DNA of 26,091 bases from positions 1 through 26,091 of the IMG/VR virus record IMGVR_UViG_3300034166_001444. One strand, given 5' to 3'. Both the position numbers and the translations under genes were made by a program. Positions 9,332 through 26,091 of this stretch are shown here, piece after piece; position 1 is the first letter of the stretch, and the number at the start of each line of letters is the position of its first letter. The notes beneath the pieces were generated by a model. It worked only from the letters and a program-made list of their open reading frames with translations, did no database searches and had not been told where the DNA came from. The DNA is from a virus.

Positions 9332-10507
9332 TCATGGTGCTTCCCCTCCCCGAGCTTCTCTAGCGCCCAGCCCGGACGCTGAATGGATTCCACGCTTGAG
9401 CACCACCTGAGCGGCGGCTACATCCCGATCGGCGGTGTAGCCGCACTCCGGGCAGTCGTGGACACGAACACTGAGATCCTTCGGCACTGCCGCCCCGCAC
9501 TCGGGGCATTGCTGGCTGGTGCCCCTGGCATCCACCTTCTTCACGCAGACGCCACGCTTCAGCCCGACCCATTTCAGGATCGAGATGAACTGGCTCCAGC
9601 CTGCATCGAGCACCTGCTTCGACAGGTTGCCGCGTGCCATCCCTGCGATGTTCAGCGCCTCAACCACGATGGTGTCGGCGGTGTCGCAGAGCCGGTGGGC
9701 TTCCTTGAAGTGGAAGTCTTTGCGGACATTGCTCAGGCGTTCGTGTTGCCTGGCGAGACGGTGCATGGCGATGCGCCAGCGGCTGCTCCCCTTGCGCTTC
9801 TTCGATGCCAAACGGTTCAGCTCTTTCAGCCTGTGTTGTCCGGTCTCGAAGAAACGGGGATTGGCCACCAACTCACCGGCACTGGTCGCCAGGAAGTTGT
9901 TGATGCCGACATCGACGCCGATCGCATTGCCGTGTGGCTGCGGTTCGGGGATGTCGATGTCCTGCTCAAGCGAGAGCATGGCGTAGAAGCCAGACGCTCG
10001 CTTGACGATCCGCACCTGCTTGACGATGGCGCCATCAGGCAGCGGACGAGACTGGCGTAGCTTCACCCAGCCGATCTTCGGCAGGCTGATGCGGCCAGCA
10101 GATAACACCTGCTTGTTCAACTGCGGGAACAGGAAAGACCTGATCCGTTTCTTGAACCTTGGGAAGCCCAGTCCTCGCTCCCATGTCGCCACAAAGGATG
10201 CCTCCAGGTTGCGGAGGACTTGCTGGAGAACATGGGTGTGAGGTTCCTTCAGCCATGGCCGTGATGGCTTGGCGGCTGCCAATGCAGCGCACTGCTTGGC
10301 GAAGGTGGGCTTGGGTGCATCCGGCGGAATGATGTACTCCTGCCGGATCGAGCAGGCGTTGACGGGTGATTTCTTCGCACGAGCGAAGTCCCGTCGCTCA
10401 GCCAGGGCGTAGTTCCAGACGCCTTTGCAGATGTCCAGCCAGCGGTCGAAAGTCTCGACCTGGGCGGGCGTCGGCAGCAGCTTGAACTCGTAGGTCTGGT
10501 TAAGCAT
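9332..10507 (-). CDS. tnpB: TnpB, RNA-guided RuvC-like nuclease of IS200/IS605
   Basis: The product has 391 residues from ATG 10507 (MLNQTYEFKLLPTPAQ, the usual TnpB start); an upstream in-frame ATG at 10747 would run through the element's left end and is not used. The RuvC triad looks intact: Asp199 in GVDVGINNF, Glu283 in IVVEALNIAGM, and Asp362 in TADRDVAAAQ. A zinc ribbon lies at Cys334/337 and Cys352/355 (CPECG...CPECG). TnpB uses an RNA from the element's right end to cut DNA and so promotes retention of the element. Intact catalytic residues suggest it is active or recently active. Confidence 0.92.
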   Translation of the reverse strand: MLNQTYEFKLLPTPAQVETFDRWLDICKGVWNYALAERRDFARAKKSPVNACSIRQEYIIPPDAPKPTFAKQCAALAAAKPSRPWLKEPHTHVLQQVLRNLEASFVATWERGLGFPRFKKRIRSFLFPQLNKQVLSAGRISLPKIGWVKLRQSRPLPDGAIVKQVRIVKRASGFYAMLSLEQDIDIPEPQPHGNAIGVDVGINNFLATSAGELVANPRFFETGQHRLKELNRLASKKRKGSSRWRIAMHRLARQHERLSNVRKDFHFKEAHRLCDTADTIVVEALNIAGMARGNLSKQVLDAGWSQFISILKWVGLKRGVCVKKVDARGTSQQCPECGAAVPKDLSVRVHDCPECGYTADRDVAAAQVVLKRGIHSASGLGAREARGGEAP

Positions 10508-10562
10508 GACTAAATGGTAGCCGTTTTCTTCAGGCTGTGCTGGACAAGGCTTTGAGGGAAAG

Positions 10563-10578
10563 CCGCCCTGAAGGGCGG
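10563..10578 (-). repeat. Left-end hairpin of the IS element
   Basis: CCGCCC-TGAA-GGGCGG forms a 6-bp stem, 56 bases upstream of the tnpB start codon. It has the same TGAA loop as the right-end hairpin. Confidence 0.7.
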
Positions 10579-10718
10579 GGCTTGAGACCCAGTTCCAAGG
10601 GTCAGCTACCAGGGCTGGCAGGGGCGGCACTGCCGCGACACCTTCCGGGATCTGAAGGCTTGCATCAGCGCGGTGGATCAGCGGCTGATGGGGGATTGCC
10701 CCATGGACCCTTAACGAG

Positions 10719-11015
10719 ATGCTGATGGGCAGCCGCTTGGTCGCCATTACGACTGAGGCCTTCCAGGGCAGCAGCGACCGAAGCTTCAGAGCTCCCCGCC
10801 CTCGTGCTCAGGGGGTAGGCAACCACCAAGCCAAGCTGACCGAGCGTGAAGCCAAGGAGATTCTCCGCGCTCGGGGGAACTGCTCTCAGGCTTCGCTGGC
10901 GGCTCGTTACAAAGTGTCACCCGCACTGATCAGCGCCATTCACCGGGGCAAAAAGTGGGGCCATCTTCAGCAGCAGTCCACTTCTAGTCCACCTGCAAAG
11001 GGTGCGCTACCATAA
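10719..11015 (+). CDS. HTH DNA-binding protein, possible HNH-endonuclease C-terminal fragment
   Basis: The product has 98 residues. The C-terminal half, AKLTEREAKEILRARGNCSQ then ASLAARYKVSPALISAIHRGKKWGHL, is a helix-turn-helix of the kind at the C-terminus of phage HNH homing endonucleases and related regulators. The N-terminal 35 residues are low in structure and no HNH core is seen. The transposon lies immediately upstream, so the original N-terminal region may have been lost. It could also be a free-standing regulator near the attachment site. The start at 10719 is uncertain. Confidence 0.5.
   Translation: MLMGSRLVAITTEAFQGSSDRSFRAPRPRAQGVGNHQAKLTEREAKEILRARGNCSQASLAARYKVSPALISAIHRGKKWGHLQQQSTSSPPAKGALP
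10975..10993 (+). repeat. AGTCCAC pair left of the att core (candidate integrase arm sites)
   Basis: AGTCCAC occurs at 10975-10981 and 10986-10993 (second copy AGTCCACC), 11 bp apart, i.e. about one helical turn. A similar pair lies on the other side of the tRNA-like core. This arrangement matches arm-type binding sites of tyrosine integrases. Confidence 0.5.
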
Positions 11016-11127: not shown

Positions 11128-11157
11128 CCCGCCTTCTCCCCCGAGGGCGGGTTTTTT
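11128..11157 (+). terminator. Rho-independent terminator
   Basis: A 9-bp stem (CCCGCCTTC / GAGGGCGGG, one G-T pair) with loop TCCCCC is followed by six T (11152-11157). It may be the trailer of the host tRNA-Pro gene after integration, or it may stop transcription entering the integrase. Confidence 0.8.
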
Positions 11158-11204
11158 GTTTCGGCCTGTTTGGACCCACTTAGGCCCACTCAGGCGCCAA
11201 AATC

Positions 11205-11224
11205 AGTCCACCTTTCAGTCCACC
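11205..11224 (+). repeat. AGTCCACC pair right of the att core (candidate integrase arm sites)
   Basis: AGTCCACC occurs at 11205-11212 and 11217-11224, 12 bp apart, just before the integrase start. Looser versions, GACCCACT and GGCCCACT, lie upstream near 11173-11190. These mirror the AGTCCAC pair left of the core. Confidence 0.5.
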
Positions 11225-11227
11225 GGC

Positions 11228-12280
11228 ATGTCCCTGGCCATCGCTCTCGGGGAGCTGAACGCCCGTCTCAAGGCCGGCCGACATCGCTGCAGCGCCGAGC
11301 AGCGCAAAGCCTCCCTGGTCCTCCGGGCCACACTGCCCGACCGCAGCGACCCCTCTATCTCGCGACAGCAGCGGATAAGCCTGAACCTCCCGGCCACTTA
11401 TGCCTCACTCCCTGAGGTCGAACGCCTAGCTGTCGGACTCAGCCATCAACTCCGAACTCGCACCTTCCACTGGGAAGCCTGGGAAGCGTCCGAGGCGGCG
11501 GAAATCACCACAGACGACTTTCACGCAGCTGCAGTCCGCCTCCACGCCACCAAATACCGCCACTCCCCCGAGCGCGGCTCCACTGCCTGGGCCAAGAAAT
11601 GGCAACCCGCCCTCCGCAAGCTGCCTCAGGGCCCCGTTACCGAAGCGATCCTCCTGCGCACTGTGCGGCGCCTCCCTGAGGGCTCTGCAGCCCGCCGCGA
11701 TCAGGGAAACATCCTGGCCCAAGTAGCTCGTTCCCTGGGGATTCCCGACGCCGCCCTGCTGGCAGCCTGCCGGGGCTACGGGGCAGCCTCCCTGCGTCCC
11801 CGGGACATCCCCTCCGATCCCGAGATCGAAGCCGCCTGGAGCTCCCTGCGCCTGCCGCACTGGCGATGGACCTGGGGCATGTGCGCCGCCTACGGCCTGA
11901 GGCCTCACGAGTGCGCAGAGCTGGTCTGGCTGGAGGACGATTGGATCGAAATCGCAGATGCCACGAAGACCGGCTCCCGGCGTGTGACCCCCTGCCCAAG
12001 TTCCTGGGTGCAGCTCTGGGGCCTGCGAGAGCTGCAGCGGCCTACCCAGTCTTCACAAACCTTAAGCAAAGCTTTCGCTGATGCTCTCACCCGAGACCGC
12101 GTCAGCACCAAGCCGTACTCCTTGCGTCACGCCTACGCCCTCAGGTTGCTGAGCAGGGGCGTCTCTGCAGATCTGGCTGCCCGCCTGATGGGCCACAGCC
12201 TGGCCGTCCATCAGCAGACCTACCAGAGGTGGATCGAGGCTGACCGGATTCAGAAAGCTATGCAAGGCTGTTCGCTTTAG
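11228..12280 (+). CDS. int: Tyrosine integrase
   Basis: The product has 350 residues from ATG 11228; an earlier in-frame start at 11156 would read through the terminator and arm repeats. Catalytic residues are visible: Arg225 in AYGLRPHECAEL, Lys247 in ATKTGSRR, Arg300 in YSLRHAYALRL (the usual His of HxxR is Tyr297), His323 in LMGHSLAVHQQ, and the nucleophile Tyr332 in TYQRW. The N-terminal half is the DNA-binding part. It would catalyse integration and, with an excisionase, excision at the tRNA-Pro-derived att site. It is GC-rich relative to the replication genes. Confidence 0.9.
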   Translation: MSLAIALGELNARLKAGRHRCSAEQRKASLVLRATLPDRSDPSISRQQRISLNLPATYASLPEVERLAVGLSHQLRTRTFHWEAWEASEAAEITTDDFHAAAVRLHATKYRHSPERGSTAWAKKWQPALRKLPQGPVTEAILLRTVRRLPEGSAARRDQGNILAQVARSLGIPDAALLAACRGYGAASLRPRDIPSDPEIEAAWSSLRLPHWRWTWGMCAAYGLRPHECAELVWLEDDWIEIADATKTGSRRVTPCPSSWVQLWGLRELQRPTQSSQTLSKAFADALTRDRVSTKPYSLRHAYALRLLSRGVSADLAARLMGHSLAVHQQTYQRWIEADRIQKAMQGCSL

Positions 12281-19831: not shown

Positions 19832-20119
19832 ATGCCTGATCTTTCTACCTGTGTATATCTGCCAGTTGTAGCTGTTAGCGAATGCCCTAAGTATTTTGCA
19901 TTTTCTTGTTACGATTCTGATGTGGACACTACTTATGAGGTAAGGGGTTACGACAAAGCATCCCTTCTATCATACGTTGACCAAGCCAGAAACTGGAGTA
20001 GGGCGCCACTTGTCCATGAACAGGCGGTTATCCCCGTCTATTTCCTTGAGGGGGTGATTCGGATCCATATGCCGACTGTCTATGCCCATGCCTACATCGA
20101 TACCCCCCCCCCCCCTTAA
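19832..20119 (+). CDS. Small unknown protein ending in a poly-C tract
   Basis: The product has 95 residues (MPDLSTCVYLPVVAVSECPK at the start, with several aromatic and Cys residues). The last codons run through 13 consecutive C (20103-20115) and give PPPP before the stop. A gain or loss of one C would change the end of the protein. No family was recognised. Confidence 0.5.
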   Translation: MPDLSTCVYLPVVAVSECPKYFAFSCYDSDVDTTYEVRGYDKASLLSYVDQARNWSRAPLVHEQAVIPVYFLEGVIRIHMPTVYAHAYIDTPPPP

Positions 20120-22613: not shown

Positions 22614-24365
22614 ATGACACTCCCTGATCCCCGTTTCCGCGTCGAACTAATTGCTCAGACACCTAATCCCCAGCGGGTAATCTGGGCGGCCATGCACCAG
22701 GACTACAGCGAGGGCTTCGTGGCCGCTGAGCGGGAGGCCTGGCCCGATGAGAAACGGTCCGGTGAGATATGTGTTAAGCGGCTACTTGCTGGAGATAGGG
22801 GCCATTATGGATGTTATGACTCTATTACAGAAGTCCTAACAAGTGACGGGTGGATGGCTTGGCCAGATGTAAAGGAGCAGTGGGACTCTGACTGCAGTCC
22901 CAATCTTCTAGCCGTTGACATCGCAAATGGAACCTGTCACTTCGAGGCACCCAAGGACATACAGGCCATCGAGTTACTCAATGGTGACCAACTCTATTCG
23001 CTAGGCAGCCAGTACCTAAACTTTGCGGTGACCCTTGACCATCGAATGGTCGTAAGCCATCGGCAGACTGGAGGTGCATTCAGCTCATGGTATTTCAAGC
23101 GGGCTATAGATGTACTAGGGAAGCCTGTCCGCTACTTGCTGAATTCCTGCCTGGCGTCCGATTGCCGCAGCCTGCCTGACGACATGCCAGTAGACGCAGA
23201 TCCACTGACCGCGTTCAAGCTCGCTGGCTTTTTCTTTGGTGATGGCTTGAGATCTAACAACAAAAATCCCTTTTGCATTCGTTTTCGCATTAGAAGACCA
23301 CGCAAGATCGCCTACCTTTTAAGCCTTGGATTGCCAACAGAAGAGAAAAAGGGGGACCGATACACCATCGCCCGCCCAGACCTGGCACGGTGGATTCACA
23401 AACATTTTTCTAATAGTTCGGGCAAAGTTGTGCCTGTCTGGATCTTGACACTACCAGAGGAATTGGTCGCAGCCTTCTGGGATGGACTCAAGAACAGCGA
23501 CGGAACCAGGATTGTAGAAAAGAGCTGGGCTTATGACAGCTCTGACAAGGAAAGCCTAGATCTTATTCAGGCGTTGGCCCACATAAATGGTTTTTCGGCA
23601 AATATGTCGTTAAATAATCTCAACGAAGGGCCCGAACATGCAAATCATAGGCCTTGCTGGAGGCTAACCATCGCCGAAAACTCTACGCGAAGAGTAGAGG
23701 CATGCTATGGGAGAAGTCCAGGGGTATCTGAGTCGCTAATTGACTATTCCGGTTTTGTTTATTGCGCCACGGTTTCCACTGGTGCGCTAATGGTTCGCAG
23801 GAAAAACAAAGTATTTGTATCCGGCAACTGCCTAGAGCATCCGGCCATCACACTAAACGTAGGCTGGTTTCCTCACTCTGTAATGCAACAGGCTAGGACT
23901 CACAGAGTAGGAGTAAGTTTTGATGTCCAGAGCATGAGATATTCGGGACAACGAATCTGTGATGCTGCAGAGGGAAGGCTAAAGATTGAAGATGTATTTT
24001 ATCTTAGGCCTGTTGGTGACTATGCAGATCGTCAAGGCAAAAAGTACACCTACACGGCTGATCAGCGAGCAATCGACTTAAACACTTGCCACCTTGCCGC
24101 TGAGCGTTATTGGGATCTGATGGCGGCAGGTTTTGCAGAGGAGCACGCTCGCGGCATCCTGCCCTTTGACTATCGCCAGCACTTCGTGGTCAGCTTCAGC
24201 TTGCGGGCCTTCCTCCACTTCCTTGACCTGCGGGCGAAGCTCGATGCCCAGGAGGAAATCCGCGCCCTGTGTGATCTGATGTGGCCCCACCTAGAGGCCT
24301 GGGTCCCCGAGATCGCCGGCTGGTACGCCAAGACCCGCCTGCACAAAGCCCGCCTCGCCCCCTGA
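22614..24365 (+). CDS. thyX: Flavin-dependent thymidylate synthase ThyX with in-frame intein
   Basis: The product has 583 residues before splicing. Residues 1-66 and 406-583 form a 244-residue ThyX, about the usual size. The N-extein ends AGDRGHYG and the C-extein begins CLEHPAITLN, then VGWFPHSVMQQARTHRVGVS with FDVQSMRYSG, the ThyX RHRxxS...S.RY region. ThyX methylates dUMP using FAD and methylenetetrahydrofolate. The intein occupies residues 67-405. Dcd and the dNMP kinase supply the steps before and after. Confidence 0.92.
   Translation: MTLPDPRFRVELIAQTPNPQRVIWAAMHQDYSEGFVAAEREAWPDEKRSGEICVKRLLAGDRGHYGCYDSITEVLTSDGWMAWPDVKEQWDSDCSPNLLAVDIANGTCHFEAPKDIQAIELLNGDQLYSLGSQYLNFAVTLDHRMVVSHRQTGGAFSSWYFKRAIDVLGKPVRYLLNSCLASDCRSLPDDMPVDADPLTAFKLAGFFFGDGLRSNNKNPFCIRFRIRRPRKIAYLLSLGLPTEEKKGDRYTIARPDLARWIHKHFSNSSGKVVPVWILTLPEELVAAFWDGLKNSDGTRIVEKSWAYDSSDKESLDLIQALAHINGFSANMSLNNLNEGPEHANHRPCWRLTIAENSTRRVEACYGRSPGVSESLIDYSGFVYCATVSTGALMVRRKNKVFVSGNCLEHPAITLNVGWFPHSVMQQARTHRVGVSFDVQSMRYSGQRICDAAEGRLKIEDVFYLRPVGDYADRQGKKYTYTADQRAIDLNTCHLAAERYWDLMAAGFAEEHARGILPFDYRQHFVVSFSLRAFLHFLDLRAKLDAQEEIRALCDLMWPHLEAWVPEIAGWYAKTRLHKARLAP
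22812..23828 (+). other. Intein with LAGLIDADG homing endonuclease inside ThyX
   Basis: The element has 339 residues. It begins with Cys (CYDSITEVLTSDGW), has a TxxH-type block (VTLDHRMVVSH), two LAGLIDADG motifs (LAGFFFGDG and VAAFWDGLKNSDG), and ends ATVSTGALMVRRKNKVFVSGN before Cys+1. The catalytic Cys1, terminal Asn405 and Cys+1 are in place. The penultimate residue is Gly where most inteins have His. The insertion point is just before the conserved LEHP of ThyX. Spliced product and mobility of the endonuclease are inferred from the motifs. Confidence 0.9.
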
Positions 24366-24370
24366 AGACA
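24351..24370 (+). repeat. 20-bp direct repeat, left copy (end of thyX)
   Basis: This copy is identical to 25223-25242. It covers the last codons and stop of thyX plus 5 bp. The match ends abruptly on both sides. Confidence 0.95.
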
Positions 24371-24449
24371 TCATGCGACGGGCTTGCGGTCTTGCTGAGT
24401 TGCTGCCTTGCTGAGGAAAGCAGTTCCAGTAGCGCCTCATTCAGGAACA

Positions 24450-24481
24450 GGTTGACAAAACCTATCAACCCTGTCTAGGAT
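24450..24481 (+). promoter_or_regulatory. Promoter overlapped by GGTTGA inverted repeat
   Basis: TTGACA (24452-24457), an 18-bp spacer and TAGGAT (24476-24481) form a candidate sigma-70 promoter. GGTTGA (24450-24455) and TCAACC (24465-24470) form an inverted repeat over the -35. The same half-sites occur upstream of ssb. It lies about 78 bp before the AT-rich gene. Confidence 0.6.
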
Positions 24482-24512
24482 GCAATCGAACAGCAGGCCC
24501 CGGCCAGCTGAC

Positions 24513-24535
24513 CACACACACACACACACACACAC
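24513..24535 (+). repeat. (CA)11 dinucleotide repeat
   Basis: Eleven CA units plus one C lie between the promoter and the start of the next gene. Such repeats are rare in phages and can change length by slippage, altering the leader. Confidence 0.95.
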
Positions 24536-24558
24536 CAAATAAAAGTCGCCCAGCCCTT

Positions 24559-25212
24559 ATGGTCACAACGCAACTGTCTACTGTTGACACCTGGAGAAGT
24601 GACATCAAGCACGCAACGCTTCTACATAATGAAGCCCGCAAAAAAGCTGAACCTTATGCAATATGGGACAGGGAAAGCAGGGTTGTTTTCGTCAGCGAAG
24701 TCCAAGGTATGTCCATGGAGCAACTGCGAACGTTGGCTGATGACTTGAGAATTGTAATCACAAGTCTAAATGACCGAATAAGCACGGAATACGTACTCCT
24801 TGCTGAGTGCCCGCAAGATAAGCCAATGGTGGCCCGCGACATCAGAAAAAAGATTAGAAGGCTAATTGCAAGAAAAGAGCAATGCAAATATGTCATGTTA
24901 GAAGCGACTAGGTATAAAAAGCACCTCAATAGAGAGGCGAACAAGCCGAAAGAAAAGCCCATGAAGCTTAATAACAGAGACGAAAACAAGCATGTAACCT
25001 TTTTGCGTGTACAAAAAAAGATGGAGTATTTAAGTCGAAAAAGGCAATTTGAAATCTTGGCTGACAGATTTGGTGCAGATACTCTCGCCGATCTTGAAAA
25101 GGAAGCTGTAACGGCTTCTATCGAACCTTTTACGCAATGGGCAAGAGAAAATGACGTAGAGCAAAACATCGTTGATCACATCATCTTCCATGCGCTGAGA
25201 AAGGGGGCCTGA
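24559..25212 (+). CDS. Unknown helical, charged protein (moron-like)
   Basis: The product has 217 residues, mostly helical and charged (VARDIRKKIRRLIARKEQ, HVTFLRVQKKMEYLSRKRQF). There are no transmembrane segments and no motif was recognised. The coding sequence is AT-richer than its neighbours. It has its own promoter at 24452-24481 and a terminator-like hairpin at its stop, and it lies within a unit flanked by 20-bp direct repeats. These features suggest a gene acquired by insertion and expressed independently. Confidence 0.7.
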   Translation: MVTTQLSTVDTWRSDIKHATLLHNEARKKAEPYAIWDRESRVVFVSEVQGMSMEQLRTLADDLRIVITSLNDRISTEYVLLAECPQDKPMVARDIRKKIRRLIARKEQCKYVMLEATRYKKHLNREANKPKEKPMKLNNRDENKHVTFLRVQKKMEYLSRKRQFEILADRFGADTLADLEKEAVTASIEPFTQWARENDVEQNIVDHIIFHALRKGA

Positions 25213-25221
25213 CCCCCTTTT
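25200..25221 (+). terminator. Hairpin terminator containing the stop codon
   Basis: AAAGGGGG-CCTGA-CCCCCTTT with one more T forms an 8-bp stem. The TGA stop of the preceding gene is in the loop (25210-25212). The T-run is short (4), so efficiency is uncertain. Confidence 0.6.
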
Positions 25222-25222
25222 A

Positions 25223-25242
25223 CGCCTCGCCCCCTGAAGACA
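25223..25242 (+). repeat. 20-bp direct repeat, right copy
   Basis: This is the second copy of 24351-24370, placed immediately before the ATG at 25243. It carries a duplicated thyX 3' end (sequence coding RLAP and the stop), which supports insertion of the 872-bp unit between thyX and the small gene that follows. Confidence 0.95.
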
Positions 25243-25476
25243 ATGAGAATCATTATCACCAGCGCTTTCCCCCTCGACCCCAGCTCCCCCGACCTTTGCA
25301 ACTGGGAATTACGCGACGGCCCCGAGGAGATCTTCACCGAGACCGGAACCACTCTCAGCCTCTACTCCGCTTTCGCCGAGATCTGCCAGGCCCGGGCCCG
25401 ACTCGCAGTACACATCACAGGAGAACCGGATCCCGAGGAGCTGCTCCCTGCACCTGAGTTCTCCCCGGATCACTGA
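25243..25476 (+). CDS. Small unknown protein (77 aa)
   Basis: The product has 77 residues, acidic (MRIIITSAFPLDPSSPDLCN, then EEIFTETGTTLSLYSAFAEI). Its ATG directly follows the 20-bp repeat. If the insertion is removed, its start would fall five bases after the thyX stop, with GAAG as a ribosome site, consistent with an original thyX operon. It is GC-rich like the ThyX C-extein. No family was recognised. Confidence 0.5.
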   Translation: MRIIITSAFPLDPSSPDLCNWELRDGPEEIFTETGTTLSLYSAFAEICQARARLAVHITGEPDPEELLPAPEFSPDH

Positions 25477-25571
25477 CTGTCCCCAGACCATCCGCCCCCT
25501 CGCACACGTCTCCCCCTGCAGCAGCACATCCCACCCCTCTGCCATGACCACTGACCCAGCATGCTTTACAG

Positions 25572-25603: not shown

Positions 25604-26091
25604 ATGACCCGATCTGAAATACAGTCCTATTTAGACGATCTAGGTCGTTACCCTATTCTCACCAAGGAGACGCAACTTCGTCATTGCTACAACATCCACG
25701 CTTGGGTGAACCACCCTGACGGAAAAGAGAACTGTCCTAAGAAGATACGACGCTTGGGCAGACGTTCCATGGAAGCTATGGTTCAAACTAATCTGCGCTT
25801 GGTCCTATCTGTTGCTAAGAACTACCAAAATCGCGGTTTAGACCTTGCAGATTTAATCCAAGAAGGGAACCTAGGCCTCATACGCGGTCTCGAACTTTTC
25901 GATCCAACTCGCGGCTACACAGTCAGCACTTACAGCTACTGGTGGATCCGTCAATCCATCACCCGTGCATTGCATGTCCGTGGTCGTGCCATACGTCTCC
26001 CTATCAATATTCACGAAGTCATAAGTCAAGCCGAGAAAGCCACCGCTGAATTCACCGCAGAGCACAGACGCAGCCCCACTATCGCTGAACT
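25604..26091 (+). CDS. RNA polymerase sigma factor, sigma-70 family (3' partial)
   Basis: The start is ATG 25604, and 162 complete codons are visible before the window ends. Region 1.2 (SEIQSYLDDLGRYPILTKET) is followed by region 2 (AMVQTNLRLVLSVAKNYQNR, GLDLADLIQEGNLGLIRGLE, FDPTRGYTVSTYSYWWIRQS, ITRAL) and the start of region 3 (RGRAIRLPINIHEVISQAEK). This matches cyanobacterial primary or group 2 sigma factors. Regions 3.2 and 4 lie beyond the edge. It could direct host RNA polymerase to phage promoters. Confidence 0.92.
   Translation, partial: MTRSEIQSYLDDLGRYPILTKETQLRHCYNIHAWVNHPDGKENCPKKIRRLGRRSMEAMVQTNLRLVLSVAKNYQNRGLDLADLIQEGNLGLIRGLELFDPTRGYTVSTYSYWWIRQSITRALHVRGRAIRLPINIHEVISQAEKATAEFTAEHRRSPTIAE

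Follow-up and report, generated by a model that had tools for sequence, protein, structure and literature searches.

The gene for a 217-aa protein that separates thyX from the small gene p77 in this phage is probably accessory cargo in a slot, bounded by thyX on one side and p77/sigma on the other, whose content has been exchanged repeatedly; it most likely entered there by illegitimate or unequal recombination. This slot is a hotspot through which many cargos without mutual kinship have passed, and since it holds nothing or unrelated genes in relatives, the 217-aa gene is one more swappable accessory gene. The window, that is the whole stretch of DNA analyzed here, is an IMG/VR virus record of 26,091 bases that encodes phage replication genes and a tyrosine recombinase. 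Its features around the slot are the following.

22614..24365, plus strand: thyX, flavin-dependent thymidylate synthase, left anchor of the slot (NCBIfam TIGR02170, E 3e-49; Pfam Thy1)
about 22812-23828, plus strand: ThyX intein of ~339 aa (inteinless relatives align across the gap)
24351-24370, plus strand: left copy of the repeat CGCCTCGCCCCCTGAAGACA, made of the thyX codons RLAP, the stop and AGACA
24371..24558, plus strand: 188-bp leader of the inserted unit
24452..24481, plus strand: sigma-70-like promoter match TTGACA-18-TAGGAT (10/12 positions)
24513..24534, plus strand: (CA)11 tract; the twin record L003 has (CA)12
24559..25212, plus strand: cargo gene from the ORF list, coding for an orphan 217-aa protein predicted to be all-helical by a single-sequence model
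25199..25221, plus strand: hairpin of 9 pairs spanning the cargo stop (arms 25199-25207 and 25213-25221), a possible terminator
25223-25242, plus strand: right copy of CGCCTCGCCCCCTGAAGACA, directly before the p77 ATG at 25243
25243..25476, plus strand: p77, small conserved phage gene, right anchor, divergent in this phage
25604..26091, running off the window, plus strand: phage sigma-70 factor, next conserved gene past p77, assigned by synteny (5828-6715 in L003)

The two copies of CGCCTCGCCCCCTGAAGACA are perfect, lie 872 bp apart and bracket the 217-aa ORF. An earlier note on this DNA had described them as the end of thyX and a copy abutting the next ATG, with a (CA)11 tract in between, and all of this was confirmed, the repeat coordinates exactly. 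A simple count of position pairs gives a chance expectation of ~3e-4 for a perfect 20-mer pair in a 26-kb record. The repeat is not a general motif of the genome: only these two copies are present in the record, no further one appearing even when two mismatches were allowed, and a reversed control pattern gave zero. Apart from the window, its twin L003 alone has the perfect duplication, which is absent from the other filled slots described below. It is particular to one phage and its twin, not a property of the slot, and is uninformative on how the other slots were filled, since these have no direct repeat. We read it as the scar of an illegitimate recombination. All filled slots might have contained degenerate remains of the thyX end, but this idea was rejected, the best matches being of 5-8 nt and mostly as in shuffles. 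A prophage att site in a host thyX was ruled out as well, because the DNA past the slot is phage and not host. Beyond the window end, the genes of L003 are still those of a phage: the sigma factor, then two proteins which, from their sequence resemblance, we take to be clamp-like and methyltransferase-like.

L003, which comes from a 21.5-kb contig, has 6.3 kb in common with the window at 99.95% identity, with the same insert and repeats. The two differ over this length only at two simple repeats, each with a shift of reading frame. Ahead of the 217-aa gene, (CA)11 in the window is (CA)12 in L003, which puts the ORF in the frame of an ATG further upstream and extends it to 244 aa; at 20103-20115, C13 in the window is C12 in L003, and the 95-aa ORF there becomes one of 112 aa. 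These differences are due either to slipped-strand switching or to assembly noise. The nearest cellular ThyX proteins belong to Cyanobium, Vulcanococcus and Synechococcus, mostly from fresh or brackish water, and freshwater picocyanobacteria are thus the putative hosts, as judged by ThyX similarity only. In 400 genomes of the Cyanobium/Synechococcus family, neither p77 nor the 217-aa gene turned up; for the latter the survey is weak, as it had no positive control. The tyrosine recombinase (11156-12280) shares 71% identity with one encoded by the L037 contig, so that the phage group is probably temperate. The record also contains an IS200/IS605-type TnpB gene (9332-10747, minus strand; NCBIfam guided_TnpB, E 1e-82).

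Relatives of ThyX and of p77 were fetched from viral contigs for comparison of the slot. About 16 contigs of one phage group have in common the order exonuclease, dNMP kinase, thyX, slot, p77, sigma and the next gene, and a second phage group presents thyX, slot and a shorter p77. The p77 family is present in about 40 viral contigs, and the sigma factor of the relative L034 matches RpoD/SigA models. The search for empty sites called for by the earlier note was successful: thyX and p77 abut or overlap in about nine contigs across the two groups (L034, L035, L037 and L121; L098, L100, L110, L111 and L117 in the second group). These empty-site relatives are ~77% identical to the window in ThyX, and within the close lineage of the window itself no contig devoid of the 217-aa gene came to light. 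Filled contigs outnumber empty ones. Counting the 217-aa gene of the window, nine cargo types occupy the slot, the other eight being:

winged-helix-like protein of ~200 aa, so classed from a model of its C-terminal part: L029/L030, L086/L087, L096, L097, L105
NUMOD4-HNH endonuclease: L088, L107/L108, L124 (four contigs, two phage groups)
SF1 helicase: L062, L093
PLD-domain protein (PLD-like nuclease): L092
ribbon-helix-helix-like (RHH-like) protein: L091
orphan protein of 134 aa: L081/L082/L102
orphan protein of 133 aa: L122
orphan protein of 66 aa: L116

When each cargo was compared by phmmer with all ORFs of the loci, no kinship between cargo types was detected, and the model of the winged-helix-like family had no PDB match under E 0.001. 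The length between thyX and p77 ranges from -4 to about 1470 nt. Other junctions vary less, the p77-sigma gap being of 11-131 nt with the exception of 582 nt in L107/L108. Several further traits of the anchors were noticed. A ThyX gap of a size similar to the intein occurs at the same position in L015, L022, L047, L122 and L124. In L099, L106 and L112-L115, the ThyX upstream of p77 is only 25-29% identical to that of the window, apparently the outcome of a replacement of thyX itself. A further ORF, conserved and antisense to p77 (GWDVLLSGERVARGR...), overlaps it (25312-25551 in the window and, for example, 5591-5824 in L034, both on the minus strand). The first codon position is the most variable one in the second half of p77, which suggests that the minus strand may be coding there; at that point p77 of the window has an in-frame stop, the antisense ORF remaining open.

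Exchange at the slot is fast. The filled L128 matches the empty L126/L125 at 98.3-98.7% identity across 5.3 kb on the left and 0.95 kb on the right, and the slot is their only large difference. Likewise, the filled L097 is 96-98% identical to the empty L100, and L081 and L105 are 96-98% identical and carry different cargos. On a tree of the exonuclease and kinase with 16 rows, the slot must have switched state at least nine times, and L088, L092 and L093, whose cargos are HNH, PLD and helicase respectively, cluster on very short branches; the place of the window in this tree is unsure, as its row sits on a long branch. Empty sites and repeated exchange together bear out the claim that an accessory gene was inserted between genes that are adjacent in relatives.

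The 217-aa protein itself is an orphan. Searches against phages, IMG/VR and GTDB genomes found only the twin L003 above noise, and those against Pfam, PHROGs, NCBIfam, PADLOC and PDB sequences gave no convincing match; no nuclease family was matched in Pfam, PHROGs, NCBIfam or PADLOC. A weak PDB match (transposase 2ec2, E 0.003) and matches to DUF3818 and Csn2 (E 0.002-0.005) fall in coiled or basic helical stretches and were disbelieved. The single-sequence fold consists of helices (mean pLDDT 64, pTM 0.41), and Foldseek against viral models returned nothing under E 0.001. Kinship with the winged-helix-like cargo family was rejected (hhalign probability 0.5%), and no donor was found in the collections searched. 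With a GC content of 0.44 and a GC3 of 0.47, the gene resembles polA, ssb and a 244-aa ORF of the phage's own; it differs from the adjacent thyX exteins and p77, which are the composition outliers (GC 0.55-0.61), and equals the rest of the phage. It is thus AT-rich, as the earlier note had it, only relative to its GC-rich flanks, and is not foreign to the phage in composition. Of the description as a newly gained accessory gene, the empty sites uphold that it is accessory and inserted, but "newly gained" cannot be read from a composition that is not foreign.

The note had further credited the unit with its own promoter and terminator. The promoter motif is present, but it is no better than chance, 0.9 sites matching at 10/12 positions being expected in shuffles of the region. 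The hairpin at the stop exists as well (centroid -14.3 kcal/mol, ending one base short of the right repeat), but with a z-score of -1.7 it does not exceed chance either, and it does not satisfy the terminator scan rule of a hairpin plus a T-run. Apart from L003, none of the phage and host loci that were fetched contains a match to the leader. Rfam returned nothing. Most other cargos begin 2-6 nt past the thyX stop, which leaves no room for a promoter.

The slots with NUMOD4-HNH genes are distinctive in their left flank. Over the last ~150 nt of thyX, the HNH carriers, which come from two phage groups, are 0.66-0.72 identical to non-carriers and 0.73-0.84 identical among themselves, whereas in the body of thyX they are as similar to non-carriers as these are to each other. 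Free-standing phage endonucleases are known to cut near, and not at, their insertion site, with co-conversion of the flanks (PMC2988022). The tract of the HNH carriers corresponds to this co-conversion pattern of intronless homing, which makes break repair near the thyX 3' end one likely route of filling. It could then be proposed that the slot is driven by a free-standing HNH enzyme that cuts close to the thyX 3' end, break repair at this site having carried in all other cargos, among them the 217-aa gene, as passengers or replacements. The presence of HNH genes in four contigs of two groups, their common thyX tract and the known behavior of such enzymes all speak for this explanation. Nevertheless, we hold it to be rather unlikely for the whole slot, because the slot of the window has no HNH gene, the other cargo types lack the HNH-type tract and cutting by the HNH proteins is itself a prediction. 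A bolder and somewhat less probable version would make the thyX-p77 junction a landing pad held open by recurrent HNH breaks, whose repair would import anti-host or anti-competitor genes such as that of the 217-aa protein, the (CA)n tract acting as a contingency switch between the 217- and 244-aa forms.

Alternatively, the filled state could be old and the empty sites derived by deletion, the 217-aa gene being ancestral. The excess of filled contigs and a composition like that of the phage would fit, but we consider this improbable: the cargos are mutually unrelated and so cannot all descend from one ancestral gene, both phage groups include empty sites, a perfect duplication marks a gain, and a search of the empty relatives found no remnant of the 217-aa gene. 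Even less probable is an excisable 872-bp cassette whose repeats would be att-like sites of a site-specific recombinase such as the tyrosine integrase at 11156-12280. Such a cassette would agree with perfect repeats at both ends, with their position at a gene 3' end and with a tyrosine recombinase encoded by the phage, but the repeat is simply the thyX 3' coding end with five further bases, nothing like inverted core arms is visible, the integrase is 12 kb distant, and the other filled slots have no repeat although a relative possesses the integrase. The least credible origin is a transposon or other mobile element that duplicated 20 bp of its target. The direct repeats around the insert and the TnpB gene elsewhere in the record would fit, but the unit has neither terminal inverted repeats nor a transposase, and elements of the IS200/IS605 type, to which this TnpB belongs, are known to make no target duplication.

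The recombinational entry that we favor would start from a lineage in which thyX and p77 were apart by AGACA only. A unit with its own 188-bp leader would have entered at this junction, most likely through illegitimate or unequal recombination between phage genomes, in which the crossover would have joined the end of the incoming unit to the thyX of a second genome, ~15 bp before the gene end. The product would be an intact thyX, the cargo, the last 20 bp repeated and p77; as the crossover leaves a second copy of these 20 bp before p77, both thyX and the p77 start region would remain intact. For the slot in general, the conserved thyX and p77 flanks would permit cargo swaps by homologous recombination between co-infecting phages, and HNH genes homing into the slot may at times assist, dragging the thyX 3' end along. 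Given the company of nucleases, a helicase and DNA-binding proteins in the slot, our guess is that the cargo has a DNA- or host-directed accessory role, through which it might benefit the phage.

Comparable slots have been described in other phages under the names of morons or regions of genome plasticity (PMC4378225, PMC6814406), and the searches of the open literature brought up none between thyX and sigma in cyanophages. Like the morons of lambdoid and other temperate phages (PMC4378225, PMC6814406), the 217-aa gene is a single gene between genes adjacent in relatives, and its unit likewise combines a promoter-like leader with a hairpin at the stop. The term moron-like, proposed earlier, is therefore apt for its place and its exchange, as the empty sites indicate. 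In contrast to morons, its promoter and terminator are not above chance, its composition is not foreign to the phage, and most other cargos of this slot start 2-6 nt after the thyX stop. The regions of genome plasticity of Pseudomonas Mu-like phages (PMC4378225) are likewise fixed slots between core genes with varying single genes; their flanks gave no hint of mechanism, whereas the thyX slot offers a 20-bp duplication and a co-conversion-like tract. T4-like intronless homing (seg, mob; PMC2988022) also places HNH genes between core genes, with co-converted flanks and next to nucleotide-metabolism genes, as in the relatives at thyX, but its cargo is an endonuclease, which the cargo of the window is not by any search, and homing into the thyX slot is a prediction.

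The entry of single accessory genes into phages has been called mysterious, their flanking sequences not being recognisable (PMC4378225). Here, one junction brings together filled and empty phages that are ~98% identical, nine cargo types, one 20-bp scar and one co-conversion-like tract, so that the mechanism of gene entry becomes testable with defined sequences. The slot is thus unusually good material on how such genes move, their swapping being directly observable, and it provides an address for finding cyanophage accessory genes, possibly including counter-defence or superinfection genes.
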